NCBI RefSeq assembly: GCF_004138205.1
Contig: NZ_RXNQ01000003.1
Location: forward strand, 62,001-126,000
Origin: Pedobacter sp. SYP-B3415
Lineage (GTDB): Bacteria > Bacteroidota > Bacteroidia > Sphingobacteriales > Sphingobacteriaceae
Reading direction: 5' to 3'
DNA length: 64,000 nt
Part shown: piece by piece, positions 7,646 through 61,204 of the stretch
Layout of the letters: every line of letters begins with the position of its first letter
How positions within the stretch are numbered: position 1 is the first letter of the stretch
Program-made: the position numbers and the translations under genes
Notes under the pieces: model-generated
Told to the model about the DNA's origin: nothing
Databases searched by the model: none
What the model saw: only the letters and a program-made list of their open reading frames with translations

Positions 7646-7647
7646 GA

Positions 7648-10614: not shown

Positions 10615-10661
10615 AATTTATTCGGTTTGGTTTAGTTTATTGGTTAGTTGGTTCTGTCTGA

Positions 10662-11531
10662 TTACAGTGAGACCGTTTCCGGCAGGTACTTACTGATCAG
10701 ATCCTCATAATAGGGTTTCAATTCTGCAACTACGGGTGCCTTCGGGCTCTTGGAATACAGGTCGTAAGGATTAAATTTATCTACCCACTCAAACATCTTG
10801 TCATCGTGGTCGTTCAGCAGATGCGAATAAGCTTTTTCGCGGTGCTGCGAATAAAAGGAGTGATACCTGATCATATAAAGCGCAGGCTCGGGAAGGTGCT
10901 CTTTTGTAAGGTGGTAGAGGTATTCATCATGCCCCCAGCTCATGTGCACATGGTCGAGTCCGCAGCGGTGGCTGTACACACCGTATTTGGTATTATATCT
11001 CGGATCATACGTGTCAGGATTGTCAGCAAAAAATTCGGGAAAAACGATCTTGTCTGAAAACTTACAGCCGACAGGAAAGGTATCGCCCACCACGTTCCAT
11101 TGCGGTTCGCCAAACAGGCAAAGAACCTTCCCGAGATCATGGATAAAACCGGTCAGAACAAACCAGTCGGGATGACCATCTGCACGTATTGCTTCTGCCG
11201 TCTGCAGCAGGTGCTGAAGCTGATCAAGAGAAATATCCGGGTCTGAATCATCCACGAGCGTATTGAGGTATTCCATCGCAGACCACCAGGGCATTTTACG
11301 CTGCTCGAATTTCAGAAAACGGTCTTTCTTGGCAAGAACATTCTCGTAGGTCTGGTATTTGTGGTTCAACCTGTAGAATTCGCGTACGCTGTCAATTTCC
11401 GGACTGTCATAATTCCTGAATTCTTCTTTTTTCTTTTCTGCCCCCTTTTCGGGATACCTTTTCAGAACATCATCGTCCCATTCTTCAAGGTTTGAAAGCG
11501 GATTCGGATTATCAAAATTTGCTGTGCTCAT
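10662..11531 (-). CDS. myo-Inositol oxygenase (MIOX, diiron)
   Basis: 289 aa, full length relative to animal and plant MIOX. It converts myo-inositol plus O2 to D-glucuronate in the cytosol. The expected diiron ligands are all visible: His in [12 protein letters not shown], the His-Asp pair in FIHDLGK (about residues 130-136), His in SWGHDEY, His in IRYHSFY and Asp in NPYDLYSK. The segment [17 protein letters not shown] is nearly identical to the eukaryotic family. It sits between a Na+/solute symporter (22 bases upstream) and SusC (47 bases downstream) on one strand, which makes an inositol-uptake-and-oxidation operon likely. Confidence 0.95.
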
Positions 11532-11553
11532 GATGTTTGTTTTTATGATTTAT

Positions 11554-13179: not shown

Positions 13180-13323
13180 AAGTTCAGCGGGCCCGGCAGT
13201 CTGCATGGCAGCTGCCGGAGCGTTAATTGGTTATACCTGGTTAGTGCCGCCCGGGGTTTGGGAGGCTTAATCAAAGCTTGTAAAAAAAGGCTGATCTGCG
13301 TAAAACATTGAATTATTTATTTA

Positions 13324-45227: not shown

Positions 45228-47621
45228 ATGAAGTATTTTGTATTGCTGCTGTTGTGGCTGCTGCCTGCGTATGGTTTTGCGCAGCAGCTCCATATAGACG
45301 GACACGTTTTTGACGAAGACCAGGTTCCACTCGCCGGGGCAGATGTTTCCTTTGGCGACCAGCGGGTGCGCACTGATGCCGCAGGTAACTTTTTTCTGCC
45401 GCTGTCTGGCCCGGGCCGTTTCGAACTGACCTTTTCGAAGGCAGGATTCAGAACGCAGCGCCGCAGTGTCGCTGTCGGGCAGACTTCTGTACAGGTACGG
45501 GTTAGATTGCTGGCGTTGAACCGGCAGCTTAAAGATGTAAAAATACTCGGCACCCGCGATGCCCAGTTTCGTGAGCAACCCATGAACCTGCGCAGTGTCG
45601 ACGCTGGCTTCATTACCCGCAACCTCGGCGGCAGCCTGATGAAAACGCTCGAAAGGTTGCCAGGGGTAAAAACAATCGGTATCGGTTCAGGGCAATCAAA
45701 ACCACTTATTCGCGGCCTGGGTTTCAACCGTGTTGTTGTTGTAGAAAAAGGCGTCAAACATGAAGGCCAGCAATGGGGAGCAGATCATGGCCTCGAGATA
45801 GATCAGTTTGCGGCGGGCAGAGTCGACATTGTAAAGGGGGCCGCCTCCTTTTTGTATGGTTCTGATGCGATTGGCGGTGTTGTCCGCATTGAACCACCTG
45901 CTGCTCCGACGGTAAACGGCGTAAGCGGAGAGGTAACCGGGATAGCGAAAGGCAATAACAACCTGATCGGCGGCTCTGTACAAACCGCTGTTAAAGGCGA
46001 CAAATGGTTTGCTGATGGCCGCTTTAGTTACCAGGATTACGGTGACTACAAAGTGCCTGCTTCTCAGGTTAACGTCTACAACTATCCTGTCGATCTATAC
46101 CGCAACCGCCTTCGCAACACAGCCGGCGAAGAACGCGGGCTGCACCTGAATGCAGGTTATATGGACAGCACCTTCCGTTCAACTTTTTTTATCAGCAATG
46201 TCTGGAGCAAAAGCGGATTTTTTGCGAATGCCCACGGCCTCGAACCGCGCCGGGTCGACGCCACGCTGCACGATGCACGGTCAGGCGATATTCTGATGCC
46301 ATCGCAACAGGTAAACCATTTTAAAATCTTAAACAGGTCCAGCTGGCAAACGGGCAAACAGTTATTTGAAGCCGAACTTGGTTTCCAGCGCAATTTCAGA
46401 CAGGAACACAGTATGTACGTTAATCATGGTTACATGCCGCCCGCCTATCCTGCCGATATGACCATTTCTCCGGCTCTTGAGCGGCAGTTTGACAAGTATG
46501 TGTACTCTTTTAATCTGCGCAATACACTCGCCTTTGAACACCATAGCCTGACGGTCGGCCTGAATACCGAAAATCAGCGCAACAGCATCAGCGGATGGAG
46601 TTTCCTGGTACCGGCTTTTCGTCAGTTCAGTGCCGGTCTGTTTGCGGTCGATAACTACAGGCTTAGCAGTAAACTGCTGCTGCAGACTGCTATCCGTTAT
46701 GATCATGTGAACTTCAGAAGTTTCGCTTACCGGGATTGGTTCAGCACGCCGCTCGCCGCCGGCGGACAGGAGAACCTGACACGCGCCGAAGCGTTCGGAC
46801 GTAATTTCAGCAGCCTGACCTGGTCTGCGGGACTAAATTACAGTCCGATGCCATTTTTCGCCCGATTCAACATCGGCAAAAGCTTCCGGGTGCCTATTGC
46901 AAAAGAGCTTGCGGCAAACGGCGTCAACTACCATTATTTTAGCTATGAACGCGGTAATCCGGAACTCGCACCCGAACAGTCTTACCAGGCGGATGCCGGA
47001 ATAGGCTGGAAAGACGATGCCTGGGACATTACACTCAGTCCTTACCTGAACTATTTTTCAAATTACATCTATTTAAACCCGACACCGTTTCACGACTATG
47101 ACTACGGTGCCGGCAACCAGATCTTTGCTTACACACAAAGCCGCGTGTTGCGTTATGGCCTGGAACTGGAACTGAGCAGGAAACTGGGAGGCGGCCGCAG
47201 CGTTGAATTGCTGGGTGAGTACCTTTACGCCCGCCAGCTCTCAGGCGATAAGAAAGGCTTCACGCTCCCCTTTTCGCCGCCGCCATCGGTTCTGTTCTCT
47301 GCAACACAGGCATTCCGCTCCGGTCGCTGGCTTCAAAATGCCTTCGTTTCGGCCGACTACCGGCTCACGGCAGCACAAAACAACATCGTCCCGCCTGAAC
47401 GGAAGACGCCTTCATCCGGCGTAGCCGATTTACGCGCGGGTGCTACGCTGCTTGCGGGAAGACAGCCTGTAAATCTCAATCTCCAGATCCGGAATCTTCT
47501 GAACACGAAATACTTCGTTCATACGAGTTTCTACAGACTCATTGACTTGCCTGAGATGGGCCGCGACATCGTGCTCAGTATCAGCATGCCTTTCGGACAT
47601 CATCAGAAAAAAAACAACTAA
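45228..47621 (+). CDS. TonB-dependent receptor, probable metal (zinc) uptake
   Basis: 797 aa. A signal peptide ends near GFAQQ. A carboxypeptidase-regulatory-like domain (HIDGHVFDEDQVPLAGADVSF) covers about residues 20-105. The plug follows, with LERLPGVKTIGIGSGQSKPLIRGLGFNRVVVVEKGVKHEGQQWGADHGLEIDQF and VKGAASFLYGSDAIGGVV. A barrel completes it, with C-terminal SISMPFG. No SusD partner is present. The HEGQQWGADHGLEID plug segment resembles ZnuD-like receptors. The His-rich lipoproteins that follow support zinc as substrate. Confidence 0.93.
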   Translation: MKYFVLLLLWLLPAYGFAQQLHIDGHVFDEDQVPLAGADVSFGDQRVRTDAAGNFFLPLSGPGRFELTFSKAGFRTQRRSVAVGQTSVQVRVRLLALNRQLKDVKILGTRDAQFREQPMNLRSVDAGFITRNLGGSLMKTLERLPGVKTIGIGSGQSKPLIRGLGFNRVVVVEKGVKHEGQQWGADHGLEIDQFAAGRVDIVKGAASFLYGSDAIGGVVRIEPPAAPTVNGVSGEVTGIAKGNNNLIGGSVQTAVKGDKWFADGRFSYQDYGDYKVPASQVNVYNYPVDLYRNRLRNTAGEERGLHLNAGYMDSTFRSTFFISNVWSKSGFFANAHGLEPRRVDATLHDARSGDILMPSQQVNHFKILNRSSWQTGKQLFEAELGFQRNFRQEHSMYVNHGYMPPAYPADMTISPALERQFDKYVYSFNLRNTLAFEHHSLTVGLNTENQRNSISGWSFLVPAFRQFSAGLFAVDNYRLSSKLLLQTAIRYDHVNFRSFAYRDWFSTPLAAGGQENLTRAEAFGRNFSSLTWSAGLNYSPMPFFARFNIGKSFRVPIAKELAANGVNYHYFSYERGNPELAPEQSYQADAGIGWKDDAWDITLSPYLNYFSNYIYLNPTPFHDYDYGAGNQIFAYTQSRVLRYGLELELSRKLGGGRSVELLGEYLYARQLSGDKKGFTLPFSPPPSVLFSATQAFRSGRWLQNAFVSADYRLTAAQNNIVPPERKTPSSGVADLRAGATLLAGRQPVNLNLQIRNLLNTKYFVHTSFYRLIDLPEMGRDIVLSISMPFGHHQKKNN

Positions 47622-47622
47622 C

Positions 47623-48465
47623 ATGAAATATAATCAGCTAATCGTATTGTTTTGTGCGCTCATTTTTCTTGGCGCCTGCAAAAAGCAGCCAGGTACAGAC
47701 GCTGCGAAGCCGGAAGTGACCGGATTGGAAATAGGCAGCGGCAACGAGCGCAAAGCCTATATAGGCAAAGACTTTCATTTTGAAGCGCAGGTTACCGCGG
47801 CGGTCAGGATCGCGGCTACGGGCATTTCCATCGCCCAAAAAAGTGGCGTACAATACAGTGCACCGTGGAAAATGGATCTTGACTGGGCTGAATTCAGGGG
47901 TGTAAAAAATACAACGATACACAAGCATTTCAGCATTCCCACCACCGCGCCCGCAGGCCGCTATGACTTCACCTTTTTCGTTCGCGATGAGAACGGCACT
48001 GAAACCAGGATGACTGAAGAACTGTCGATCCTGAACCCTGCCGACCAGGAGGTACAGCCGGAAATTATGGTAGTTCAGGGTCCGGCCTCAAGCCAAACGT
48101 TTCAGAAAGACGAACCGATTGCACTCAATGTGAATATAACAGGAACGCAGGATGACGGACAGTTTTATGCCGTGTTAATCAGTCAGGCCTCAAATCATTA
48201 CCCAGAGCTGATCAGCCAGGTAGATGCCGGCAAGGCAATCGTTGTTGCCGATGCTTTACATACCAATCTGGCAAAAGGCAGCCCTTTTTCAGTATCTGCA
48301 AGTCTTGCTGTCGGGGCAGCGGCCGATAACAAAAAACCATCAGGCACACCGGTTAACGGTTCGCGTAACTGGCAGTCGGGTAACTATACCCTGGTACTGC
48401 TGTATACAAACTCAACGCATGGCATTCACGCATATAAAAGCATTCCCATTCGCATACAACTCTGA
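47623..48465 (+). CDS. DUF4625-type lipoprotein
   Basis: 280 aa from MKYNQLIVLFC at 47623, one base after the receptor stop. The lipobox LGACKK is near residue 17. Two Ig-like beta domains follow: residues about 35-140 (IGKDFHFEAQVTAAVRIAATGISI to APAGRYDFTFFVRDENG) match DUF4625, and a second beta domain spans about 150-280. It is likely anchored in the outer membrane as an accessory to the receptor. Confidence 0.8.
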   Translation: MKYNQLIVLFCALIFLGACKKQPGTDAAKPEVTGLEIGSGNERKAYIGKDFHFEAQVTAAVRIAATGISIAQKSGVQYSAPWKMDLDWAEFRGVKNTTIHKHFSIPTTAPAGRYDFTFFVRDENGTETRMTEELSILNPADQEVQPEIMVVQGPASSQTFQKDEPIALNVNITGTQDDGQFYAVLISQASNHYPELISQVDAGKAIVVADALHTNLAKGSPFSVSASLAVGAAADNKKPSGTPVNGSRNWQSGNYTLVLLYTNSTHGIHAYKSIPIRIQL

Positions 48466-48473
48466 CATATATC

Positions 48474-48944
48474 ATGAAAAAAACAACTAAACTCCTGATC
48501 CCGCTGGCCTGTCTGATCCTGGCCGGATGCAGTAAAGATGAAACACCGGTAGACACGACATATCCCGTGATCGACCTGGCTTACCAGGGAGCGTCACCGC
48601 AGCAATGCGGCACCTTTACCCGTGGCCAGAAGATCAGTTTCAAAGCACGTTTCTCTGACAACGTAGCACTTGGCTCTTACAGCATAGATGTTCATCATAA
48701 TTTCGACCACCACAGTCATAGCACCGAAGTGAACGATTGTGCGCTTGAACCTAAAAAAACTGCCGTTAAACCCTACCTGTTGATTAGAAATTTCCCTATT
48801 GAAGGGAGCCCTGCAAGTTATGAAGCTGTCACTGAATTTGACATTCCTGCTGATGCAGATCCGGGCGATTACCATTTTCTGGTACGCCTTACCGACCGTG
48901 AAGGCTGGCAGACGCTAAAGGGAATCAGTATAAAAATTAAGTAA
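48474..48944 (+). CDS. DUF4625 lipoprotein with His cluster
   Basis: 156 aa, lipobox LAGCSK near residue 20. It is a complete DUF4625 domain: TYPVIDLAYQGASPQQCGTFTRGQKISFKARFSD, VHHNFDHHSHSTEVNDC, FDIPADADPGDYHFLVRLTDREGWQ. The five-His run HHNFDHHSH and paired Cys suggest metal binding. It lies 8 bases after the first DUF4625 gene. A role in capturing zinc at the cell surface is inferred. Confidence 0.88.
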   Translation: MKKTTKLLIPLACLILAGCSKDETPVDTTYPVIDLAYQGASPQQCGTFTRGQKISFKARFSDNVALGSYSIDVHHNFDHHSHSTEVNDCALEPKKTAVKPYLLIRNFPIEGSPASYEAVTEFDIPADADPGDYHFLVRLTDREGWQTLKGISIKIK

Positions 48945-48962
48945 AAAATAAAAACCCAAATC

Positions 48963-50207
48963 ATGTTTAACAAACACAACCTAAAGAAAATTGCGCTTTT
49001 CGCGCTGCTGGCCGGCAGTTTCGCTGCCTGTAAAAAAGATCCGGCTGATCCCGATGATCATGACCATGATGACCATGGTAAAGAATTTAAGTATGTACGG
49101 GTGCTTGTGAGCGACGAAAGCAGTGCCAAACTTACCCAGATTGATCCGTTTGCAGCCGCCATTACCAGTTATGACGGCAAATTCCCGCTGGCAAATCTCT
49201 ATGCTACGGCTTCCGGTCGTTATGCTGCTGTTCTCTATGGTGCCAACAACCTGGTTGAGGTATTTGACACGGGCCTTCAATCGCATGAGGACCATGTTGA
49301 CGTGGCCAACAATCCGAAGTGGGCAGCCATTACAGCATCAGGCATTAAACCCACCCATTTTAAAAGTGACGGTGCAGAGTCGCTGATTTTTAATGATGGC
49401 GACGGTACACTAAGTGTAGGCAATGAAGCAGATTTTAATACTGCCGGTGCCAGGTTTACAACTGTTAACGCCGGCTTATTGCCGCATCATGGTGCGATGG
49501 CACAATTCGGGAACGGAACCTATGCGGTCACCGTAGCCGCAGCCCAGGGCGCTTCGCCTACACGCGTAAAGGTGATCAATAAAACCGGTGCGCAGGTTCA
49601 TGCTTCAACGCTCGAAACAGGGGCGATTCACGGTAACGCCACCGACGGCTCAAATGCGGTTTTTGGTGCGTTCACAAACTCGGCGAACACAGCCGGAGGA
49701 GCACTTGTCGTAAGACAAACCGGCGAACAGCGCATGATCCCTAATCCTGATGGCTTTGGCGCATTCAGATTGGGAACCATCCTGTACGCAAAATCAGCTA
49801 AGAAGTTTATCGGTTACGCTGCAACCAAGGGCGCTTACATGATTGATCTTGTTAACAACAGGATGACAACGATATACAGCGGTACCGATGCGATTCAGTG
49901 CAAAACGGACTATGCAGGCAAAAACCTGTTTGTACTTTCGCTTGACGGCAAACTTCGCATTTATGACCTCAGCAGCGGCGCGCTGAAAAAAGAAGGTCAG
50001 GCCATTGGTGCCACTCCGGCAGCAGACACCTACAAACCTGTGCTTGAGGCAACAGCAAGATATGCATACGTTGCAGTTCCTTCGGCCGGTGAAGTGCATC
50101 AGATCGACCTGGAAAACTTCAGCAATGTAATAAAACACAAGGTGAGTGCACGCCCGGTTCGCCTGGCCGTGCTTGGTTTCGAGAACAGCGAATCTCACGA
50201 CCACTAG
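48963..50207 (+). CDS. His-rich beta-propeller lipoprotein (AztD-like)
   Basis: 414 aa, lipobox FAACKK near residue 22, then a flexible acidic/His stretch DPDDHDHDDHGKEF. The rest is a seven-bladed-type propeller by repeat pattern (YVRVLVSDESSAKLTQID, GRYAAVLYGANNLVEVFD, ATARYAYVAVPSAGEVHQIDLENF). Further His lie at HEDH, LPHHG, AIHGN and the C-terminal ESHDH. The architecture recalls the AztD zinc metallochaperone, a beta-propeller with a His-rich loop. It is the last gene of the locus, before a strong terminator. Confidence 0.8.
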   Translation: MFNKHNLKKIALFALLAGSFAACKKDPADPDDHDHDDHGKEFKYVRVLVSDESSAKLTQIDPFAAAITSYDGKFPLANLYATASGRYAAVLYGANNLVEVFDTGLQSHEDHVDVANNPKWAAITASGIKPTHFKSDGAESLIFNDGDGTLSVGNEADFNTAGARFTTVNAGLLPHHGAMAQFGNGTYAVTVAAAQGASPTRVKVINKTGAQVHASTLETGAIHGNATDGSNAVFGAFTNSANTAGGALVVRQTGEQRMIPNPDGFGAFRLGTILYAKSAKKFIGYAATKGAYMIDLVNNRMTTIYSGTDAIQCKTDYAGKNLFVLSLDGKLRIYDLSSGALKKEGQAIGATPAADTYKPVLEATARYAYVAVPSAGEVHQIDLENFSNVIKHKVSARPVRLAVLGFENSESHDH

Positions 50208-50266: not shown

Positions 50267-50322
50267 ATTTTTACAATACCCGCCCGGATGTCGGAGTCAT
50301 AAAAACCAAAAGTTCCTGACGC

Positions 50323-50391
50323 ATAAAAGCCCTGACATCCATCAAGGCTCTTAGTAACTAACCAAACTAATAAATACTAACCAAATATTTA
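50323..50391 (-). ncRNA. Candidate small RNA complementary to SusC-type leaders
   Basis: On the minus strand a promoter (TTG at 50422-50424, 17-base gap, TAGCTTTG at 50397-50404) is followed by a body of about 70 nt and a terminator stem AGCCTTGA/TCAGGGCT (50328-50349) with TTTTAT. The body carries UUUGGUUAGU twice. Its reverse complement, ACTAACCAAA, closely matches the untranslated leader of SusC at 10627-10651 (ten contiguous bases AACTAACCAA). No open frame fits inside. The RNA and its pairing are predictions. Confidence 0.5.
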
Positions 50392-50396
50392 CGCTG

Positions 50397-50424
50397 CAAA
50401 GCTACGTGTGCCTTATAAAGACAA
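50397..50424 (-). promoter_or_regulatory. Promoter of the candidate small RNA
   Basis: Minus strand: TTG (50422-50424), 17 bases, TAGCTTTG (50397-50404), fitting TAnnTTTG. It reads away from the metal-uptake operon's terminator side and into the candidate small RNA. Confidence 0.5.
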
Positions 50425-50591
50425 TGTTAACGAAACATGAATTTGCGTTCCTCAGATCAAATCCTGAAACCATCGCGGCATCCGGTTCATTGCACGTCTG
50501 GCCATATGCGAACATTCGGAAAACAAGCCGGGGTCTTACAGAATAAGAGCATATATAAATGAGCTCTACTTTTCCCGGTTCACGGCCGCCA

Positions 50592-53399
50592 TCAATCCTG
50601 GCCTGCAAGGGGTAATGTGAAGATGAAGGTCGACCCTTTACCCCACTCGCTTTCTACCCGGATCGTTCCCTGGTGATGCTGAAGAATTTCGGCACAAAGG
50701 TATAGGCCGATGCCGAAGCCCGAAATGGAGCGCGTATGGTCTGCCTCTACACGATAAAAACGGTCAAAAATACGGCGCTGGTCTTCCGGGTTGATACCAG
50801 ATCCCTCGTCTTTTACGCTGACTTCAGCATTGTTACCGTTGATTTTACAACTCAGCGTGATGTTTGTATTGCGGGGGGCATATTTTACAGCATTGCTAAC
50901 CAGGTTTGTAATGACCTGGGTGATTTTGTTTTTATCTGCATGTACCTGAAAATTGTCACATGGTTCAATCTGAAGCCGGTGTTCTCTGGCCAGAAAAACT
51001 GCTTCTGACGATATCTCAGTAAAAAGTTCGCTGAGGTAGAAAGTCTCAAGTTGGAGTTTGATCTTCCCGGATTCCAGGCGTGAAACATCCAGGAAGCCAT
51101 TGATCAGTGAAGTGAGGCGAATCATCTGATTATGCACTTTGCCCAGCATAGAACCCAGTTGTGCGTCGGCCCGTTCATTCGCTTTTTTCTCAAGCATCTG
51201 AACATAGGCCCTCGCCGATGTAAGCGGGGTACGCATTTCATGGCTTACCATAGCAATAAAGTCATTCTTTCTAATTTCATCAGTTTTACGCTCGGTGATA
51301 TCCATCATGGTTCCCGAAAAATGCGAAGGCATATTCTCCTGCGCAGGAAAATATCTTGCTGAAGCTTTCAGCCAGATCTGTTTATGATCAGAACGCCGTT
51401 TAACCGGAAATTCCATATCAAGCTCCTGTCCGCCGCTCAGCGCCTGTTCGATGGCGTCCATCATTTCGCTGCGGTAAGGCTCTTCAATCTGACGCATGGC
51501 CATTTTATAGCTCATATATGCATTTTCTTCAAAGCCAAACAAGCTTTTCAGGCGGCTTGAAGGCACAAACTGACGACTTTCTGCATACAGGCTCCAGGTA
51601 CCCAGCTTGGCTGATTCTATAGACATATTAAACATCTGCTGTACCTGCAGCGATGCATTTCGTGCAACGATAGCACTCGTTATTTCCTGGAGGATAACAA
51701 GCAGGGAGCGGACATTTCCTGCGCCATCTTTTATAGGATGATATATTGAATTTACCCAGGCTTCGCGAAGTCCGCCGTTGTGGTGAAGTTTGATTCTCAA
51801 TTCATTATTAACCCGCGTCTCTCCGCTATGCATGGCCTGCAACAACCATTCGCGGATGTGCTGGCCATTAAGCTCCGGCCTGGCATCGGCATGAGGCCGT
51901 CCAATCATTTCTTCGGCCGTACGGCCCCATATTTTAAGGACCTCATCATTGGCAAGTTCTGTGATCAGGTCTTCGCCGCTCAGCAGCGCCATACCTACAG
52001 GTGCATGCTCAAAGATACTTTTGAAACGTTCTTCGCTGTCTGCCAGAAGGCGGTAGTAATGGTGCAGCTCGCTCTGCGCATCTTTCAACTTTGCATTCGC
52101 CGCCACCAGCTCATCATTGGCCTGAAGAAGTTCATCGTTTGTGGCAAGCTGTTCTTCGTTTATAGCCGTCAGTTCTTCGTTCACGGCCTGTAGCTGCTGT
52201 TCACTGTCTTCCAGTTTGAGTCTTGATTCGACCACTTCAGTGATGTCAATAACCGTTGCCATAATGGCTTCGACCGTTCCGTCGACTTCGAACAGAGGCT
52301 CATACGCAAAATTCACATAGATGCGCTCGAGTTTTTCATTACGACGAATGTCTACAGCAACTTCATTCATAGCCACACCCCTACCGTTTTCGAAGATCCC
52401 AGCCAGCAGTTCAGGAAATGGCTGATCAATGAGTTCCGGAAAAACATCGAGCAGGCGGCTGCCAATCATTTCATCCGTCGTGCGCGCCCATATGCCGAGC
52501 ATGGGAGTATTTGCAATCTCGACCCTCAGCTCGCGTCCTTTTAAGACCGTTATGCCGATCGGTGCCGCCATGACCATGTTACGCAGGCGGTTTTCATTGT
52601 AAGCGATTTGCCGGCGCGCACGAATCTGGTCGCTTACCTCGTATGCCACGATCATAATGGAGATCCGGCCATCAATGTCTCTGATTGCCTGGTAAACAAA
52701 ATTGAAAAAGTATTCGCCCAGCACGCCATTTTTCATGATCAACGCTCTTGTTTCGTTGCCATGATAACTTTGCCCGGTGCGCATAACACCATGAAGGATC
52801 TCCAAAAATTGCTGGCCTTCTAATTCGGGAAGACCTTCTGCCAGCGGCTTGCCTACAACCGAGTTCTCTTTACCCCAAAGATCGAGCATCAAGGGATTCG
52901 CCATTGTAATCTGCAGATCGGGACCTTCAAGCAGGCCGATCGCCATCGGCGCCTGCGCCATAACTTCACGGAACTGGGCCTCGGCCTGGGCAGCCCGAAG
53001 ACGTGCATGAACGCCATCGGTAACATCTGTGGCCGTATGCAGAATGCAGCGTGTCTTGCCGGCATGGTCTTTCACGGCCCGGTACTCAAAATCAAAATAC
53101 CGCTGCGTTGGTAGGCCGTTTCTTAGAAGCGTAGCCGGCATCTGCGAACCCGAATACGTTTCTCCCGTGCGCCAGACGTTTTTTAACAAGCCGATAAAGA
53201 CCTGTTCTGCCAGCTCCGGCACCGCTTCTGCAAGCGGCATTCCGACAACCGAGCGGTCTTTATCCCAGAAAGAGAGCATCTCGTCGTTTGCCATTTCGAT
53301 GACGATGTCTTCTGACGTATATACTGCGGTGGCATTCGGCGAAAGCGAAAGCACAGCCAACAAGTCATGGGAACTGAGAGATCGTCTAGAAGTATCCAT
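50592..53399 (-). CDS. Multi-PAS hybrid-type sensor histidine kinase (no receiver)
   Basis: 935 aa, cytosolic, without membrane segments. Four similar PAS domains of the MANPLMLDLWGKE type lie at about residues 12-130, 140-255, 265-385 and 455-580. A coiled coil at about 385-450 has repeated LTAINEEQLATNDELLQANDEL. A fifth PAS (SARYFPAQENMPSHFSGTMMDITERKTDE) precedes HisKA (FIAMVSHEMRTPLTSARAY) and HATPase (NLVSNAVKYAP, DEGSGINPED, SGFGIGLYL). No response regulator is adjacent. It probably senses redox or a small ligand. Confidence 0.93.
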   Translation of the reverse strand: MDTSRRSLSSHDLLAVLSLSPNATAVYTSEDIVIEMANDEMLSFWDKDRSVVGMPLAEAVPELAEQVFIGLLKNVWRTGETYSGSQMPATLLRNGLPTQRYFDFEYRAVKDHAGKTRCILHTATDVTDGVHARLRAAQAEAQFREVMAQAPMAIGLLEGPDLQITMANPLMLDLWGKENSVVGKPLAEGLPELEGQQFLEILHGVMRTGQSYHGNETRALIMKNGVLGEYFFNFVYQAIRDIDGRISIMIVAYEVSDQIRARRQIAYNENRLRNMVMAAPIGITVLKGRELRVEIANTPMLGIWARTTDEMIGSRLLDVFPELIDQPFPELLAGIFENGRGVAMNEVAVDIRRNEKLERIYVNFAYEPLFEVDGTVEAIMATVIDITEVVESRLKLEDSEQQLQAVNEELTAINEEQLATNDELLQANDELVAANAKLKDAQSELHHYYRLLADSEERFKSIFEHAPVGMALLSGEDLITELANDEVLKIWGRTAEEMIGRPHADARPELNGQHIREWLLQAMHSGETRVNNELRIKLHHNGGLREAWVNSIYHPIKDGAGNVRSLLVILQEITSAIVARNASLQVQQMFNMSIESAKLGTWSLYAESRQFVPSSRLKSLFGFEENAYMSYKMAMRQIEEPYRSEMMDAIEQALSGGQELDMEFPVKRRSDHKQIWLKASARYFPAQENMPSHFSGTMMDITERKTDEIRKNDFIAMVSHEMRTPLTSARAYVQMLEKKANERADAQLGSMLGKVHNQMIRLTSLINGFLDVSRLESGKIKLQLETFYLSELFTEISSEAVFLAREHRLQIEPCDNFQVHADKNKITQVITNLVSNAVKYAPRNTNITLSCKINGNNAEVSVKDEGSGINPEDQRRIFDRFYRVEADHTRSISGFGIGLYLCAEILQHHQGTIRVESEWGKGSTFIFTLPLAGQD

Positions 53400-53563: not shown

Positions 53564-56500
53564 TTACATGCCTGTAGCCTGATCCGGGGCGGCAACAGCC
53601 GGTGGCATCAGTTTGTAAATAACCGGGGTAACCACACGCGAGAGCAGCGTGGAGCTGATCAGCCCGCCGATCATGACAATAGCCAGCGGTGATATCAGCG
53701 GATTTGTTGAAATCGCTATTGGTATCAATCCGCCAATGGCCGTCAGGGTGGTGAGTATAATGGGCAGAAACCTGACCTCGCCGGCTTCGCGGATGGCCTC
53801 ATCGAGCGACATACCTTCCTGGCGAAGCTGGTTTGTAAAATCCACAAGCAGGATCGTATTTTTTACCTCGATACCCGCCAGCGCGATCATTCCCACCACG
53901 GCAACAAATGAGAGCGTATTTCCTGTGATGAGAAGCGAAAGCACGGCACCTACAATACCAAGCGGGATCACCGAAAGAACGATCAGTGTGCTCTTGAACG
54001 TTTTGAATTCAAGTACCAGTACGGCCACAAACAGGAATACCGTGACAATAATGATGCTGCCAAAACCACCGAAAGAACGTTGCCTGCTTTCCACCTCGCC
54101 ACCCATTTCGAAGCTGTACCCAGCAGGAAGTTTATATCCCTCGAGGCGCGTCTGCACATCGCTGACCACCCGGTCTGTCAGATAACCCTTCTTCACAAAG
54201 GCTGTTACAGAAACTGTTCGCGTCTTATTATAATGATTGATGGTAAGTGGAGAGGTTTGCAGCCTGAAGTCTGCCAGTTGTGCCAGCGGAACTGCGGTGC
54301 CCTCCAGGTTGTTTATATACAGTGTCTTCAGGACGTTGAAGTCGGGATACATTGGCCTCGGCACAGACAGGAGGATATCATAATCATCGCCGCCAGCATC
54401 AGGATTGGTGAATTTTCCGAGCGTAAGGCCGGCCACTGCCAAACGTACAGTGCGGTCTATGTTGACTGTGGGGATACCGAGTGACAAGGCCTTTTCCTTA
54501 TTGATATCGACCTTTATATCTGATTTCAGATTTCTGACCGGATTGTTTACATAGATGGTTCCGGGCGTCCGGTTTAACATTTGCTCAAGATCTACGGCAA
54601 GCCTGCGCAAAGTATCTAGGTTATCACCCAACAGACGTACCTCTACAGGCGCAATTACAGGGGGGCCCTGTTCAAAATTTTTCACCTCAATCTTTGCTCC
54701 GGGATAAGGTGTCCATTTCTGCCGGAGGCTTTCAACAATCGCCTGTTTCCGGTCTGTTCCGGTGCCTGGGTCAAGCTGCACAAATATCTCAGCGAAATCA
54801 CTGCGTTCGTTTTGCTGGATAACGTTATAGTAGATCCTCGGGTTCCCCTTCCCTACATTCGTTGCGAAATAACGCATTTCCGGAACCGCAGCCAGCTCCT
54901 TTTCAATTTTACGCGTAACACTATCGGTATAAGCCAGGTTTGACTGCAGCGGTGTTACGATATTGATCAGAAACTGCGGTTTCTCCGATTGGGGAAATAA
55001 GCTAAAGCCGACAACAGGAAATAATGCCATCGAACCGGCGAAAATCAGGATGGCCGCCAGTACGGTCATAACAGGGTGTTTCAAGGCCACATTTAACAGT
55101 GGCGCGTAAGTTTTGTGAATACCTCTTTTAAATGCGCGCAAAAACAGGTTGCCTTCGGGATGCCCGGCGTGGCTTTTCAGCAGCCTGCTTGAAAGAAAAG
55201 GAACAACTGTCAGCGCCACCACCATCGATGCTATAATGCAGGCGATTACGGCCGCCGGCAAACTTCTTATAAAATCACCTGAAGCTTCGGGCAGAAACAG
55301 CAGCGGCATAAAGGCAATCATCAGGGTAGCGGTGCAGCCGATTACCGCTACGCCGATTTGTTTCGTTGCCATCAGTGTAGCATTCATTCTGCTGTGTCCA
55401 TCCCGCAGCCAGCGCTCTATATTTTCTACAACAACGATACTGTCATCGACCAGCAGGCCGAGTGCCACAACCAGTCCGACAATACTCAGTTGATTCAGAT
55501 CGAAGCCCAACACGTTAATTATGACAATGCCAATAGCGAGCGACAATGGAATAGAGATCATCACCACCGTTGCAGCGCGCAGGCCGAGCGGCAGCAGCGT
55601 GACCGACACGAGCAGAATGGCGATGAGAAAGTATGTTCCCAGTCCGCTAAGCCGGTTATTCACATTGTCGGCCTGATCAAAACTCAGTTTCAAATCAATG
55701 TTGGCGGGTAAAGTCTTTTTGAAATCTTCAATGACCGGAAGATAAGCCTCCTGAGTGCGGCTGATATTTTCCCCGGGCTTCTGCGCCGCAACAACAAATG
55801 CACTCCGGTAGCCATTCAGGCGCGTAATATGCGTTTCAGGCGCATAATCGAAGTAAACGTCTGCCACGTCGCCGAGCTGAACATTTTTCCCTCCGGCGCT
55901 GGCTACAACCGTCGCTTTGATTTCTTCAAGACTTTCATAATTGCCGCTGGTTTTGATATTGAAAGACTTGGTACCCTGGTTAATGCTTCCACCCGGGATA
56001 TTTGCGAGTTCGCTCTGTATCGCATTGCTGACCGTTCCAATAGGCAGTCGCAACTGGGCGAGTTTTGCGGGGTCAAGGTCTATCCGTACCAGCCGGCCAG
56101 GCATGCCTGCTATCTCCACATTTTTCAGAAAGGGAATTTTTTCCAGGCGTTCCTGCAGGTCTTCGGCGGCTTTTTGCAGTTTTTCACGGGAGGCGTTCAT
56201 CGATACAAGACCAACCTGCAGCACATTGACGTCGGTCGGGGAAATTTTCTGGACCTCAAGACTGAACAGGTCTGCCGGCAGACTGCTCCGCAAGGCATTG
56301 ACCTCGCGCACAAGCTCCTGGTATTTGTCGTCTACATTTGCTGCGTATTTGCTTTCTACCGCTATCACAGCCAGACCGTCTTTTATAGTTGTCTTGATCT
56401 CCTTGATGTCGTCGAGTGCATAGATTTTCTTTTCGATGGGTTTGACCACGAGTTCTTCCATATCCTTCGGACTGGCACCGGGATAGACTGCAACAATTGG

Positions 56501-56635
56501 GAAATTCGGCGCCTTGATGTCCGGATCTTCTGACCGGGGCATATTCAATATAGTGGTAACACCCAGCACCGCCACCATGATAAACATGATAAGTGTAAAC
56601 TGGTAATTTTTTACAGCGTATTCTGAGATTTTCAT
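53564..56635 (-). CDS. RND family efflux permease (AcrB/MexB superfamily)
   Basis: 1023 aa inner-membrane pump with 12 transmembrane helices and two large periplasmic loops. The proton-relay motif GLLVDDSIVVVENIERW (about residue 400) in TM4 has the Asp pair. The N-terminal YAVKNYQFTLIMFIMVAVLGVT and PRSEDPDIKAPNFPIVAVYPGASP are typical of AcrB-like pumps in Bacteroidota. It exports drugs or metabolites together with the adaptor upstream. It is the last gene of a TetR-linked operon whose TolC component is broken. Confidence 0.95.
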   Translation of the reverse strand: MKISEYAVKNYQFTLIMFIMVAVLGVTTILNMPRSEDPDIKAPNFPIVAVYPGASPKDMEELVVKPIEKKIYALDDIKEIKTTIKDGLAVIAVESKYAANVDDKYQELVREVNALRSSLPADLFSLEVQKISPTDVNVLQVGLVSMNASREKLQKAAEDLQERLEKIPFLKNVEIAGMPGRLVRIDLDPAKLAQLRLPIGTVSNAIQSELANIPGGSINQGTKSFNIKTSGNYESLEEIKATVVASAGGKNVQLGDVADVYFDYAPETHITRLNGYRSAFVVAAQKPGENISRTQEAYLPVIEDFKKTLPANIDLKLSFDQADNVNNRLSGLGTYFLIAILLVSVTLLPLGLRAATVVMISIPLSLAIGIVIINVLGFDLNQLSIVGLVVALGLLVDDSIVVVENIERWLRDGHSRMNATLMATKQIGVAVIGCTATLMIAFMPLLFLPEASGDFIRSLPAAVIACIIASMVVALTVVPFLSSRLLKSHAGHPEGNLFLRAFKRGIHKTYAPLLNVALKHPVMTVLAAILIFAGSMALFPVVGFSLFPQSEKPQFLINIVTPLQSNLAYTDSVTRKIEKELAAVPEMRYFATNVGKGNPRIYYNVIQQNERSDFAEIFVQLDPGTGTDRKQAIVESLRQKWTPYPGAKIEVKNFEQGPPVIAPVEVRLLGDNLDTLRRLAVDLEQMLNRTPGTIYVNNPVRNLKSDIKVDINKEKALSLGIPTVNIDRTVRLAVAGLTLGKFTNPDAGGDDYDILLSVPRPMYPDFNVLKTLYINNLEGTAVPLAQLADFRLQTSPLTINHYNKTRTVSVTAFVKKGYLTDRVVSDVQTRLEGYKLPAGYSFEMGGEVESRQRSFGGFGSIIIVTVFLFVAVLVLEFKTFKSTLIVLSVIPLGIVGAVLSLLITGNTLSFVAVVGMIALAGIEVKNTILLVDFTNQLRQEGMSLDEAIREAGEVRFLPIILTTLTAIGGLIPIAISTNPLISPLAIVMIGGLISSTLLSRVVTPVIYKLMPPAVAAPDQATGM

Positions 56636-56646
56636 ATGTGGCGTTG

Positions 56647-57693
56647 TTAAGGTCTGGTAATTTTTATGGCTGAGCCCTGATCGAGATAGGCGCTGCCGGA
56701 AACGATCAGGTATTTTACACCCTCGAGCCCCGAGCGAACGTATACCTGGTTATTCTCAATTCCGCCGATGCTTACATGAACTTTCCGGGCCTTCCTGCGG
56801 TCGTTTGTTACAAAAACATAGCCTTTCCCTGCGTCCCCGTCGAGTAGTGCATCGTACGGAATTGTCCAGCCTTTACTTTCACTTGCTGGATAAATCTTTG
56901 CCCGCCCAAAAAGCCCGCTCGCCAGCTTTCCCTGTTTTGCGTTAAAGCTCAGTTCGGCAGCAAAGGTTCCCGAAGCCGGGTCAATACCCTCACCTTTCTT
57001 TGTCAGCATGGCCGGCCAGGTAGCACCTCCGGTTGCATCTGAGCTGATCTCTGCCCGATCCCCGATGCGTAAGGATGCCCATTGTTTATCGCTAAGGCCC
57101 ACTTTGAGTAACCATTTACCCGCACCGGCGCCGTTTACAAGCAGCACCGGGGTGCCGGGACTTACAACCTGCCCTGCGTTCACGTATTTTTTTAGTACAA
57201 AGCCATTGGCTGCGGCACGTATTTCAGAAAAATTGCGGTTAAATCCCGCCACTTGCTGCTGCTGCCTGGCAACGTCAAGTGCAGTTTTTGCGTTCTGAAG
57301 CTGCTCAAGTGTAGCCACGCTATCGCGGTACAGTGCCCGCGCCCGGGTGTAATCGCGTTCCGCTTTCTGCAGAGACAAGCCGGCCTGTTGGGCCTGCGCC
57401 CCCACCTCGGTCAGATTAAGCGTGGCCAGCAACTGGCCTCTCTTTACCGCATCGCCCTCTTTTACAAATATGCTGGCAACAAGCCCCCCGGTCTTGAACG
57501 CGAGCGGCGTTTCATCGTCTGTACTGAATATGCCCGATGTTTGGATGGCGGCTCCCGGGGCTTCCTGGCGTAGCGCTACGACGGTTACCGGGATCTCTGG
57601 TGCTGCAAAACTGTCTTTTTCTTTTTTTTTTTGAGAGCAAGCAGCCAGTGTAATGGCCAGCACGAAGCCGGCCTGTATAATTTTTGATTTCAT
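56647..57693 (-). CDS. RND periplasmic adaptor (membrane fusion protein)
   Basis: 348 aa lipoprotein-like protein (LAACSQKKK). The lipoyl-type hairpin and coiled coil lie at about residues 60-165 (GGLVASIFVKEGDAVKRGQLLATL, IRAAANGFVLKKYVNAGQVVSPGTPVLLV), followed by beta-barrel and membrane-proximal domains. It bridges the pump and the outer-membrane channel. It lies 11 bases upstream of the permease and 8 bases downstream of the broken TolC gene. Confidence 0.94.
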   Translation of the reverse strand: MKSKIIQAGFVLAITLAACSQKKKEKDSFAAPEIPVTVVALRQEAPGAAIQTSGIFSTDDETPLAFKTGGLVASIFVKEGDAVKRGQLLATLNLTEVGAQAQQAGLSLQKAERDYTRARALYRDSVATLEQLQNAKTALDVARQQQQVAGFNRNFSEIRAAANGFVLKKYVNAGQVVSPGTPVLLVNGAGAGKWLLKVGLSDKQWASLRIGDRAEISSDATGGATWPAMLTKKGEGIDPASGTFAAELSFNAKQGKLASGLFGRAKIYPASESKGWTIPYDALLDGDAGKGYVFVTNDRRKARKVHVSIGGIENNQVYVRSGLEGVKYLIVSGSAYLDQGSAIKITRP

Positions 57694-57701
57694 GATGCGT
57701 A

Positions 57702-59080
57702 TTATTGAATGGGGTAAGAAGCTGTTTCACGTTCAAGTTCTGCTGCATTGATCAGCACCTTGTAGAGATTAATATTGACGGCGAGTCGGGCAGCCGTCAG
57801 CTGGTTGCGGGCATCTACCGTTTCAATGAAGGTATTGCTGCCGGCCTTATAGCCTTTTTCAAGCAGACGCTGGTAACTGGCCGCGGCCCAAGTTGCCTGA
57901 GCGAGGAACCGTAAGTTCTCCAGGCATAAATCAAGTTGTTTTGTGCGGTTTTGCTGCTTAATTCCAGCTGCCGCGCGGCCAGTTCCCGGTTCAGGCCGGC
58001 ATTTTTTGTGTCAAGCGATGACTGCCTGATCTTCAGCCGGTTTCTGTTCCCGGTAAACACGGGTATCTCAAGCTAAATCCCCGCCAGGTAATATCTTGCG
58101 TTGCTATTGAAGCGAAAACCCTCGGCCTGGCTGCCCACGTCAATGAACCCGTTTATTCTTGGCACCCAGAAATTGCGGTTCATCCGATCCGCCGTCTCGC
58201 TGATAGCAACGGCTTTGTCAAGTGCCTTTAACTCCTCCCGGCCCGCAGCTGGCGTATCAACTTCGCCTGTTGGCATGACTGATGCCAGCCTCTCTTTCGC
58301 TTGCGAATCTGGCGCAATGTCTGAGGAAGCCGGCTTGTTCAACAAGAAATTGAAGTAAGCCGCGGCATTCGCGGCGTTTAGCCGGGCAGCATTCAATTGG
58401 GCATCAACCTGCTCGGCTTCGGCATTGGCACGCAAAACGTACGCAGGAAGCCCTTTTCCATTTTTCAACAGGGCCTCATTCACGCGCCTGCCCTCAGCAG
58501 CAAGCATGGCGGCCGACTCATATATACCGATCGCCTCATGCGCACTCAGATAATTGTAATAAGCAGCTTTAATATCTTTTGCCAGCTCGCGTTTGTAAAT
58601 AATAACTTCAAACTCCTGGATACCTAGTTGTGCCTCCTGAATTTTTTTGTTATAGCCCAGGTCGGTGTTTAAAATCGGCACTGCTGTATGCAGTTTCGCA
58701 TCATAAAAATTGTTCGGAAAAAAGGTCTGCGAAACATTGGCGATTTGTGGAAAGTTTTCCGTGCCGGTTAGCTGGTTTAATGAACTGTACACCGGATTAA
58801 GAAGATCGCCAACAGGCAGGTCTATCGACCGGCCGCCCTGTCCGCTTTGATAGGCCGCCTGGAAACTGATAGCGGGCAGGTACATGCTTTTCGCTACCTG
58901 AAGCGCATTTACCGCCTTTTGCAGCGAGACCTGTTTTTGCTGCAGAACAATATTGCTGCGAAAGCCTTCGCGCACATACCCATCAACTACATCCTGCCGG
59001 GCCTGAGCAGCCACCGGCACAAGCAGACAAACCCGGAAAAACAGCTTCGTCAGCCATTTAAAATTAATCATTGTTGACAT
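57702..59080 (-). pseudogene. Broken TolC family outer-membrane efflux gene
   Basis: The reading starts at MSTMINFKWLTK (59080) with a signal and a TolC coiled-coil domain, then stops at an amber codon at 58073-58075 after YYLAGI. In the same frame it continues LEIPVFTGNRNRLKIRQSSLDTKN, as a TolC protein should, so a Gln-to-amber change is likely. Near 57890-57912 the frame shifts, and the last part (ATWAAASYQRLLEKGYKAGS to ETASYPIQ) is in another frame, ending at 57702 beside the adaptor gene. Two separate lesions make a non-functional gene likely; sequencing error is possible for either one. Confidence 0.8.
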
Positions 59081-59092
59081 CGTTTATTTTAA

Positions 59093-59108
59093 TAACAGTG
59101 TTAAGTTA
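59093..59108. promoter_or_regulatory. Candidate TetR operator upstream of the RND operon
   Basis: TAACA-g-TGTTA (59093-59103), continuing AGTTA, lies 13 bases before the TolC start. The core TAACA-nn-GTTAA plus TTA resembles the site before the TetR gene at 59782. Confidence 0.55.
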
Positions 59109-59121
59109 AGTTCAAAATTTT

Positions 59122-59757
59122 TTAGTTTATTCTTTCAAGCATTTTTACAAATGTTTCAAATACATAGGTTCGTTTCGGTATAACAAGCCCGGGAATCATG
59201 TCTTTTTTATCTACCATATGCTCAAGCCTTTTTGTAGCGCTCAGGGTGCAAAGTCCATGAACCATGCTCCATATGGTCAGCGACAAGCCATGCGGCTCAA
59301 AACCCTTAAAATAACCGCTCTGCTGACAGGCAAGGATGGTCTGGTAAAGTCCGCCGTAGGTTGTCATACCCTCCTCCCACTCACTATCAGACTTAAAGCA
59401 CAGCTCGACCGGTTCTTCCATGACAAACATAAGATCATAATAGTCACGGTTTTGCTCGGCAAACTCGAGATACATCCTGCCCATCGCTTTCAGCCGCTCA
59501 AACGGTTCTTCCACATGCTGCAAGGCACTGAATTTATCCTGCATCAACCTGAACCCTTCCTGGTGCAGTGCAAACAGAATCTCGTTCTTGTCTTTGTAAT
59601 AGAGGTAAATTGTTGTCGGACTGAATTCAATCAGTTCTGCAATATTACGCATGGAAGTCGCAGTGAATCCTTTCTCACTGAACAATCTTTTGGCAGCATC
59701 AAGTATCGCCTTTTTCAGATCCTCCTTAGCCCTCGATTTTCTTTCCTTAATTCCCAT
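59122..59757 (-). CDS. TetR family transcriptional regulator
   Basis: 211 aa. The N-terminal HTH reads LKKAILDAAKRLFSEKGFTATSMRNIAELIEFSPTTIYLYYKDKNEILF (about residues 14-62), then an all-helical ligand-binding domain. It lies upstream of and on the same strand as the TolC-adaptor-RND genes. Similar dyad sites precede both this gene and TolC, so it probably represses itself and the pump. Confidence 0.93.
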   Translation of the reverse strand: MGIKERKSRAKEDLKKAILDAAKRLFSEKGFTATSMRNIAELIEFSPTTIYLYYKDKNEILFALHQEGFRLMQDKFSALQHVEEPFERLKAMGRMYLEFAEQNRDYYDLMFVMEEPVELCFKSDSEWEEGMTTYGGLYQTILACQQSGYFKGFEPHGLSLTIWSMVHGLCTLSATKRLEHMVDKKDMIPGLVIPKRTYVFETFVKMLERIN

Positions 59758-59853: not shown

Positions 59854-60726
59854 TTAATTGCTGATCTTGTTTACCACCAGGTCATCAAAATAAATGTAGC
59901 TGGTTTGGCTTGACCCCCAGACCGCAACATCTTTTCCGCCACGGAAATTATGGAATGACAACCGGTTGATCAGTCGCTGAGCATCATTCGTGGTCCAACG
60001 GATAGCCTGGTCGAGTACCGTTGTGCCGTTAATGCGCACCTGTACCCAGCCATTTTTATTTGATCCGGTATTACTTTTCACATAAAGGTGCACATTATAG
60101 GTTGCACCTTTGGCGAGACTGCCGGCCGAGGGGTATGACTTGTTGAAGGTATCGCCACATGGGCCCGCCATGTCTCTGTGGTATACATAAGGCTGAAAGA
60201 AAACCCTGCTGCCCGTATTGTACCACATCAGCCTCAGGCTGCCGCCGTTGCCGTCTGTTGGAACATCGCAGCCCGTATTGCCTTCGCCGATCAGAAACCC
60301 GAATCCGACCTTTCCCCCGCGGCTCCAGTCGAAGTCGCTGTGAAAACGGATCTTAAAATCTGCTTCATAGGCAGAGCCATCAGAAATGTCTACTTGCGAG
60401 ATAAGTCCGTTCGAAACCGAATTAGGCATCAGTGTGGCCCGTGCCCAGTTACCTGAGATCCAGGCCCGGCTTTCGTTCCAGCCCTGCAGCGTGGCGCCAC
60501 CAAAATCGGCACTAGCCTCGCCATACGTAAAGGTTCCGTCGCTGTGGTTAAACTGGGTATTGATGTAGCTTGGCCAGACCTGGGCTGTGCTGGCGGAGGC
60601 ACTTTTTTCGGGCGTCCCTGCTGCGTCCTGTTGCGGCGCCTCATTTTTCCGACAGCCTTGAAGGCTGAATAATACAGTCATTGCAAGTGCCCACGACCGG
60701 ACAATTTGTTTCTTGTTTGTCTTCAT
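59854..60726 (-). CDS. Secreted PL14-like lyase family lipoprotein
   Basis: 290 aa. The lipobox LQGCRK puts the Cys near residue 25. The mature jelly-roll domain has ADFKIRFHSDFDWSRGGKVGFGFLIGEGNTGCD, LRLMWYNTGSRVFFQPYVYHRD, GATYNVHLYVKSNTGSNKNGWVQVRINGTTVLDQ and RLSFHNFRGGKDVAVWGSSQTSYIYFDDLVV. These features match polysaccharide lyase family 14-type proteins, which act on alginate or glucuronan. The gene stands alone, without SusCD. Its leader begins CCTAACCAAA right before the ATG, like other SusC-type leaders here. Confidence 0.75.
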   Translation of the reverse strand: MKTNKKQIVRSWALAMTVLFSLQGCRKNEAPQQDAAGTPEKSASASTAQVWPSYINTQFNHSDGTFTYGEASADFGGATLQGWNESRAWISGNWARATLMPNSVSNGLISQVDISDGSAYEADFKIRFHSDFDWSRGGKVGFGFLIGEGNTGCDVPTDGNGGSLRLMWYNTGSRVFFQPYVYHRDMAGPCGDTFNKSYPSAGSLAKGATYNVHLYVKSNTGSNKNGWVQVRINGTTVLDQAIRWTTNDAQRLINRLSFHNFRGGKDVAVWGSSQTSYIYFDDLVVNKISN

Positions 60727-61204
60727 TTTGGTTAGGATTGATTGTAATTAACGAGTTGAATTTACAGGGCCTGTCCTTGACAAGCCGCTGCCATGCATTG
60801 GTTTTTAAATCCGGGGCCGGCCCCCGCTAAATATCTGGTTAGACCCAAATATAAGCTAACCGAAGTCGAAAAATCAAAAAAATTACACTTAAATACTTGT
60901 CTATCAACAAATTACAACGCAACACGATACGTTTTAGCAGCACACTGACCAGCAGCTAACAGGCTGGTAAGCCGGCTTATAGATCGAAGGCCGGCGTGCA
61001 CAACGATACGCTTAAATAACACGACAATTTTTCCGGCAAAAGATCAGGAAATCGAAGTTTTTAGAAAGCCGGGCCTGAAGCATGGCATTCAAGGCAGTCC
61101 GGCTGTACGCTGTAGCGCTCGTTCCTCGCGGCTGCCGCTCCCATCCGGTTTAGTTAACCAGGGTCCCGCCATCCATCGGAGCCGATAGCTGCATTCCGCC
61201 TGAT
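60727..61204. other. Gene-free stretch
   Basis: No gene was recognised between the PL14-like gene and the element remnant. The region is AT-rich near 60850-60930, where promoter elements of the PL14-like gene would lie, and then becomes GC-rich without a clear feature. Confidence 0.4.

Follow-up and report, generated by a model that had tools for sequence, protein, structure and literature searches.

The closest described counterpart of the locus treated here is FopS, a paralogous small RNA (sRNA) family of Bacteroides thetaiotaomicron (PMC11697453). According to the available text of that report, FopS and the Pedobacter sRNA are alike in being multicopy and ~65–70 nt long, in having an intrinsic terminator and a promoter of the TAnnTTTG type, as well as in the site of pairing, close to the start codon of SusC-type mRNAs, predicted here by computation; the several paralogues per genome typical of FopS have their equivalent in two strong copies in the present genome. 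The two differ in the seed core, which in the Pedobacter sRNA is predicted to sit in the loop of a 5' hairpin, whereas it is given as single-stranded in FopS, in the input—Pho-type repeats versus a bile-salt response—and in the partner, since FopS is described there as binding the RRM protein RbpB. The corresponding domain RRM_1 (PF00076) gave no match in this genome and was found in the Bacteroides control. Homology to FopS was rejected, the alignment to the printed 35-nt R1' seed consensus being no better than that of shuffles (122/500). The Pedobacter sRNA thus stands outside the FopS family in seed sequence, seed structure and RRM partner, and is best read as functionally similar to FopS without detectable sequence kinship.

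The other known systems are more distant. GibS of B. thetaiotaomicron, as far as the same report (PMC11697453) can be followed, is alike in using two seeds at translation initiation regions, but has other seeds, other targets and another promoter. Rfp18 of Flavobacterium psychrophilum (PMC9723704) resembles the Pedobacter sRNA as a genus-conserved trans-acting sRNA of the Bacteroidota, but is longer, has three stem-loops and affects metalloprotease mRNAs, with no Pho link found in the accessible part of the paper. The PusCD system of Flavobacterium (PMC8115612) is similar in placing SusCD-type outer-membrane transport under phosphate control; it differs, however, in that low phosphate induces a phosphate-type SusCD, and the available text mentions no sRNA. 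In the open-licence literature, among the matches listed, no publication was found that deals with an sRNA of Pedobacter or with one that responds to phosphate and acts on SusC. The reading preferred here, regarded as rather probable, is that of a Pho-controlled multicopy sRNA pairing with and repressing the mRNAs of SusC and other carbon-uptake proteins.

The sRNA gene and its surroundings

The gene is located on the minus strand of the window (the whole stretch of 64,000 nucleotides that was analysed), where the best match of the covariance model covers positions 50321–50396 (77.0 bits, E 8.7e-10), also represented in the family alignment A1. The transcript, presumably expressed, is predicted to have ~65–75 nt, both ends being approximate, and is composed of three parts: an A/U hairpin carrying UUUGGUUAG, a linker in which such a motif recurs, and a terminator that covaries. 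All its elements are on the minus strand: the -7 promoter box TAGCTTTG of the TAnnTTTG type, aligned across the family (50397–50404); the 5' A/U hairpin holding the seed-1 core in its loop according to both the fold and the consensus structure (50370–50392); seed 1, AATATTTGGTTAG, the complement of CTAACCAAATATT, delimited from the family alignment and the target-site enrichment (50377–50389); seed 2, TTAGTTTGGTTAGTT, in the linker, recognized from the sequence and from RNAduplex pairing (50355–50369); and the terminator hairpin with a GGAU loop and a short T run (50324–50353), the stem of which covaries in the family. The motif TTTGGTTAGT occurs twice in the body, at 50385–50376 and 50366–50357. 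The box, the ~70-nt body, the doubled motif and the hairpin with its T run had all been described in the initial annotation and are confirmed on this strand; of the promoter proposed there, the -7 box stands, whereas the 'TTG' is not a conserved part of it, the TTAAYA repeats being conserved instead.

The 76-nt RNA folds with -20.7 kcal/mol (z -3.26), a value equalled by none of 200 shuffles, and the 42-nt piece including the terminator reaches a z of -4.35; the hairpin was absent from the output of a simple terminator scan. It should be pointed out that the decamer has five matches in the 64-kb window at up to one mismatch against 3.96 expected, which is within chance, so that the case rests on comparative evidence. 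A coding function of the body was rejected, no plausible ORF being seen on reading.

Concerning the neighbourhood, a PAS histidine kinase gene (50592–53399) lies upstream on the same strand, preceded in turn by genes for an RND efflux pump, a membrane-fusion and an outer-membrane efflux protein (53564–59757, minus strand). The convergent neighbour on the plus strand, without a Pfam match and with a terminator of its own, is the last gene of a stretch (45228–50207) comprising a TonB receptor, two DUF4625 genes and this His/Asp-rich lipoprotein-like gene, the whole being a probable metal-binding surface system.

Distribution and conservation of the family

A search for paralogues of the body, suggested in the initial annotation, found copies in this genome as well as across the genus. 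When the segment 50300–50440 (minus strand) was compared by BLAST with relatives, many genomes of the genus gave strong matches, frequently more than one, the best of them spanning from the -7 box through the terminator end, and the shared core was present in 30 retrieved relative loci. The covariance model R1 recognizes two strong copies in this genome, C4:112321–112396 (the window copy) and C36:83207–83288 (copy 2), both with ~77 bits; a weak third candidate was seen at G000:C33:44633–44708 on the minus strand (L065; 33.7 bits, E 0.04). Within Pedobacter the sRNA was detected by the model in 115 of 119 genomes, with 1–7 copies each. An order-wide search matched 108 of 300 genomes, all within one of 17 genera; among the genomes listed, no match was seen in the 16 other genera sampled. 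Absences in this search and in that of the 119 genomes are soft, because searches of more than 40 genomes at once ran with stricter filters. The 22-nt core, among the 80 of 119 stretches listed, came from Pedobacter, one Nubsella and two Sphingobacteriales/Sphingobacteriaceae bins.

Seed conservation was read from alignment A1, in which each of 26 genomes is represented by one locus from among the 30 best of the BLAST search: TGGTTA is invariant in it and TATTTGGTTAG is found in 24 of the 26 loci. Alignment A2, mostly the loci L100–L179, was retrieved via a 22-mer containing both seed 1 and the 5' hairpin, so that their invariance there is by construction, and its terminator helix alone was used for covariation. 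Changes on both sides occur in 9 of 12 pairs of the terminator stem among 75 distinct relatives, in which the whole structure has 119 both-side-change cells against 27.9 in shuffles; the family and its terminator structure are thereby established computationally. Four loci and the window stretch searched against Rfam 15 (4227 models) gave only matches below the gathering score, and a known Rfam RNA was rejected; so was a phage-borne element, the exact 22-mer core having no match in viral_contigs. As far as these tools show, this would be an undescribed sRNA family.

The GGAU tetraloop of the terminator (50340–50337 in the window) is nearly invariant while the stem beneath it covaries, and may be read by a protein or RNA partner.

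Promoter element and a probable link to phosphate

Among 112 distinct family promoters, half-sites spaced by 11 bp precede the TAnnTTTG box. The search expression that collected these promoters demanded TTTG, TTTGGTTA and GGATRTC but made no demand on the repeats. Counted from the final G, the best-kept bases are T-44 (99%) and A-42, T-33, A-31, T-22 and A-20 (100%), the other half-site bases being kept less. In the window the TTAAYA repeats with the 11-bp spacing occupy 50414–50441 on the minus strand, with TTAACA at 50430–50425, TTTATA at 50419–50414 and a degenerate third half-site at about 50441–50436; this copy has two mismatches to the strict composite pattern. A plain -33/-7 promoter was rejected, since the TTAAYA repeats are conserved and a TTTG box is without conservation.

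Exactly two sites in the 4.47-Mb genome match the strict pattern TTAACA-N5-TTAACA-N9-TANNTTTG, one at sRNA copy 2 and the other at the promoter of a DUF47/PhoU_div gene, after which comes a gene for a PHO4 phosphate transporter, the PHO4 domain having been tested in this genome only. In its TTAAYA form, the pattern matches exactly nine times in five other genomes of Pedobacter, where its reversed control has no match: four of the nine precede sRNA copies and five lie 18–78 nt before a 213-aa protein that, judged by eye, is probably the same DUF47 protein. In all six Pedobacter genomes the exact element thus precedes the DUF47 operon, its sole other place being the sRNA genes. Looser matches with up to three mismatches number 24 in this genome against four in the control; those with three mismatches at an olsF-like gene, ppk1 and a phosphoesterase gene, the last two named by eye, are suggestive only.

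A gene related to this olsF-like one stands tail-to-tail with the sRNA, 0–94 nt apart, at 52 of the 90 copies examined, including copy 2 here. The call as OlsF-like is based on 346 of 620 bits, which is under the NCBIfam cut-off, and on Acetyltransf_5, which is over that of Pfam. In Vibrio, according to the accessible text of PMC12186959, the formation of ornithine lipids via OlsF at low phosphate needs PhoBR. No PstB reaches the cut-off in this genome, in agreement with plant-associated Bacteroidetes being reported, in the available part of PMC8115612, to be without PstSABC. The initial annotation had noticed neither the promoter element of Pho type nor the olsF-like neighbour.

With 11-bp direct repeats by the promoter, common to phosphate genes, the element has a feature of the Pho regulon, and we infer control of the sRNA by phosphate starvation through a PhoB-type regulator. 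A rather unlikely alternative is that of a real sRNA that does pair with SusC leaders yet is controlled by another OmpR/PhoB-type regulator responding to envelope or general nutrient stress, its site being only Pho-box-like and the DUF47 operon belonging to that regulon. The regulator itself is indeed putative, as is Pho control of the sRNA, and low-affinity systems of the Pit type need not be Pho-induced, a point that favours this alternative; the exact element shared with the DUF47 operon in six of six genomes and the frequent position beside the olsF-like gene fit phosphate, however, and argue for the PhoB-type regulator.

A few further observations belong to this element. In the region G000:C36:81276–83288 (L063, L241), where copy 2 and the OlsF-like acyltransferase gene meet tail-to-tail, the latter gene has a loose Pho-like promoter match, and at 13 sRNA copies (L117, L118, L119, L127 and nine more) a second, shorter OlsF-related gene lies upstream, pointing away. 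Two-mismatch Pho-like promoters were also seen at G000:C36:89719 (L225), before a protein with a TonB-receptor-like N-terminus, and at C32:305675 (L223/L057), before the only SusC gene here having such a promoter; this one SusC gene is without an AACCAAA site. Both are candidate phosphate-type outer-membrane transporters.

SusC leaders as predicted targets

The leaders compared were those of every SusC gene of this genome that passes the curated cut-off (49, out of 57 matches in total) and of 638 background ORFs of at least 120 aa (639 minus one SusC-like), the latter taken from the window and 40 further 20-kb stretches, i.e. about one-fifth of the genome; background starts were first ATGs, whereas SusC starts were chosen by signal-peptide score. 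A second Pedobacter genome (G058) and a genome of the same family without the sRNA (G173) contributed 40 of 53 and 20 of 24 SusC genes, respectively, mostly by score order, their backgrounds being freed of ORFs of at least 850 aa.

The commonest 7-mer of the SusC leaders here is AACCAAA, present in 14 of 49 against 15 of 638 others (p 5e-10), and ACCAAATA occurs in 7 of 49 against 2 of 638, both being complements of the sRNA core UAUUUGGUU. The top 7-mers in G058 are AACCAAA (14/40 vs 9/168) and ACCAAAT (13 vs 5), CTAACCA being next (10 vs 3), and they join to CTAACCAAATATT, the exact complement of AAUAUUUGGUUAG. In G173, the one genome of this kind, AACCAAA is in none of the 20 SusC leaders and in one of the 100 others. 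Any 7-nt match to the 13-mer was found in 16 of 49 SusC leaders versus 47 of 638 others here, in 19 of 40 versus 21 of 168 in G058 and in 2 of 20 versus 10 of 100 in G173, and as many SusC leaders were matched by 6, 1 and 498 of 1000 shuffles of the 13-mer, respectively. The opposite orientation gave 0 of 49 and 2 of 40 SusC leaders versus 40 of 638 and 13 of 168 others (here and G058), and the median site end lies 10.5 nt (here) and 10 nt (G058) before the ATG. The enrichment with its orientation and position is thus established by computation, and the expectation of the initial annotation that SusC leaders would beat other leaders for pairing sites is upheld here and in G058, with no such signal in G173.

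In terms of duplex energy, copy 1 prefers SusC leaders (-19.7 vs -17.6 kcal/mol for the background, p 9e-4) and copy 2 does so weakly (p 0.055), while shuffled RNAs—24 mononucleotide shuffles per copy—on average prefer background leaders. SusC leaders as the predicted target class of the sRNA therefore hold up well.

It might nevertheless be that the sRNA is real and acts mainly otherwise, on a few mRNAs or on a protein through its GGAU loop, and that AC-rich SusC leaders match a U/G-rich seed by composition. The GGAT sequence of the loop, kept in 70 of 75 distinct relatives, agrees with this idea, as do the 33 of 49 (here) and 21 of 40 (G058) SusC leaders without any 7-nt match to the 13-mer and the mild enrichment in the distal region 134–200 nt upstream of SusC genes (9/49 vs 26/631), which means that composition contributes. 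Such an explanation is, however, distinctly unlikely in view of the permutation and shuffle controls (6/1000 and 1/1000), the orientation of the sites, their placement at the start codon and their restriction to the genus, which parallels that of the sRNA itself; the action on SusC leaders is preferred.

Genus-wide sites and other predicted targets

Across 74 Pedobacter genomes the exact 13-mer CTAACCAAATATT was found 284 times and its reversed pattern 47 times; since the same genomes contain 149 sRNA copies by the model, at least 135 matches are outside these copies. A further 127 genomes of the family, from outside the genus, gave 38 matches, against 68 for the control. A genus sample was formed by the first 40 matches listed after removal by eye of sRNA overlaps, one of which (L404) is an sRNA copy by the model, leaving 39, several being orthologues of one another: a SusC homologue follows 11 of these (10 times within 48 nt), and for 25 the start of an ORF of 100 aa or more lies no further than 31 nt away. 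Under the same criteria, 17 of the 38 matches from outside the genus included one SusC homologue, at 131 nt, and four nearby ORF starts.

Among predicted targets other than SusC, the PL14-like lyase, a FadL-type porin and glpK/glpF genes recur between species, the porin and glpK/glpF being named by eye and having weaker sites in this genome. The regulator of nutrient-uptake genes acting in trans, as claimed in the initial annotation, is supported by the enrichment of pairing sites, with predicted targets reaching beyond SusC to other carbon-uptake genes.

The common sequence might also be a DNA site or leader element (for protein binding or as a translation enhancer), found on the plus strand of the locus by descent and with no antisense action. 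Although the plus strand of the locus does bear the leaders' word, this is highly improbable given the strict orientation and position before the ATG, and since it is the strand producing the complement that has the conserved promoter and the covarying terminator.

Proposed mode of action

According to the preferred reading of a Pho-controlled sRNA, a PhoB-type response regulator would bind the TTAAYA repeats, which would replace a -33 box, and switch the sRNA gene on in phosphate shortage. The ~70-nt RNA would then use its 5' hairpin loop and its linker to pair with sites resembling CTAACCAAATATT that lie shortly before the start codons in the mRNAs of SusC and further carbon-uptake proteins, so that ribosome entry would be blocked, carbohydrate uptake lowered and outer-membrane capacity freed under phosphate stress. 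The direction of regulation would be negative: the placement of the sites over the start region argues for a block of translation, and FopS is reported, in the accessible text of PMC11697453, to block translation of the susC gene BT_3983. Phosphate-starved Flavobacterium, as described in the available part of PMC8115612, induces phosphate-type SusCD complexes, which provides a rationale, as silencing of sugar-type SusC would free capacity for them.

The wider version of this reading, which we favour somewhat, is a phosphate-to-carbon switch, in which a Pho-regulated multicopy sRNA present throughout Pedobacter shuts down much of the SusC/carbon-uptake programme at translation in phosphate starvation, having an origin independent of FopS and no RRM_1 partner, the sites in SusC leaders having evolved to fit the loop.

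What appears new is a SusC-silencing type of sRNA with a new input signal, distinct from FopS. In the literature found, as far as its available text goes, gut Bacteroides are so far the only organisms in which a multicopy sRNA has been described to silence SusC mRNAs; a further family, unrelated in sequence and found in a soil genus, would point to a recurrent strategy of the Bacteroidota, in which SusC start sites are silenced by repeated sRNAs. The Pho-type promoter gives a concrete signal and, if true, ties phosphorus status to polysaccharide uptake, a coupling of phosphorus and carbohydrate that bears on soil carbon turnover.

Predicted targets in the window

The second predicted target in the window is the PL14-like lyase gene (59854–60726), with CCTAACCAAA directly before its start codon (60727–60736, minus strand). 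In the leader, copy 1 pairs at the CTAACCAAA site (-14.3), while copy 2 forms its best duplex (-19.6) at another place; in the orthologue from G140, CTAACCAAATATT is located 19 nt before the ATG.

The first is the SusC gene 7648–10614 (minus strand), for which the initial annotation had reported two complementary sites in the leader. Both are present, AACTAACCAA (10649–10640) and ACTAAACCAAAC (10636–10625), but the 'leader' is a short gap (10615–10661, minus strand) behind the MIOX and SSF genes, the two sites lying within 47 nt after the stop of the preceding gene. In RNAduplex both motifs of the sRNA pair with both sites at once and in register, with -24.0 kcal/mol for copy 1 and -24.7 kcal/mol for copy 2, the paired region reaching into the AUG, which makes the earlier idea of two motifs for two sites plausible on one mRNA. 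As this SusC gene follows the SSF transporter and myo-inositol oxygenase genes, the site may uncouple SusC from both. The whole stretch 6032–13206 (minus strand), coding consecutively for the SSF transporter, the myo-inositol oxygenase (MIOX), SusC and SusD, looks like a locus for inositol uptake and oxidation.
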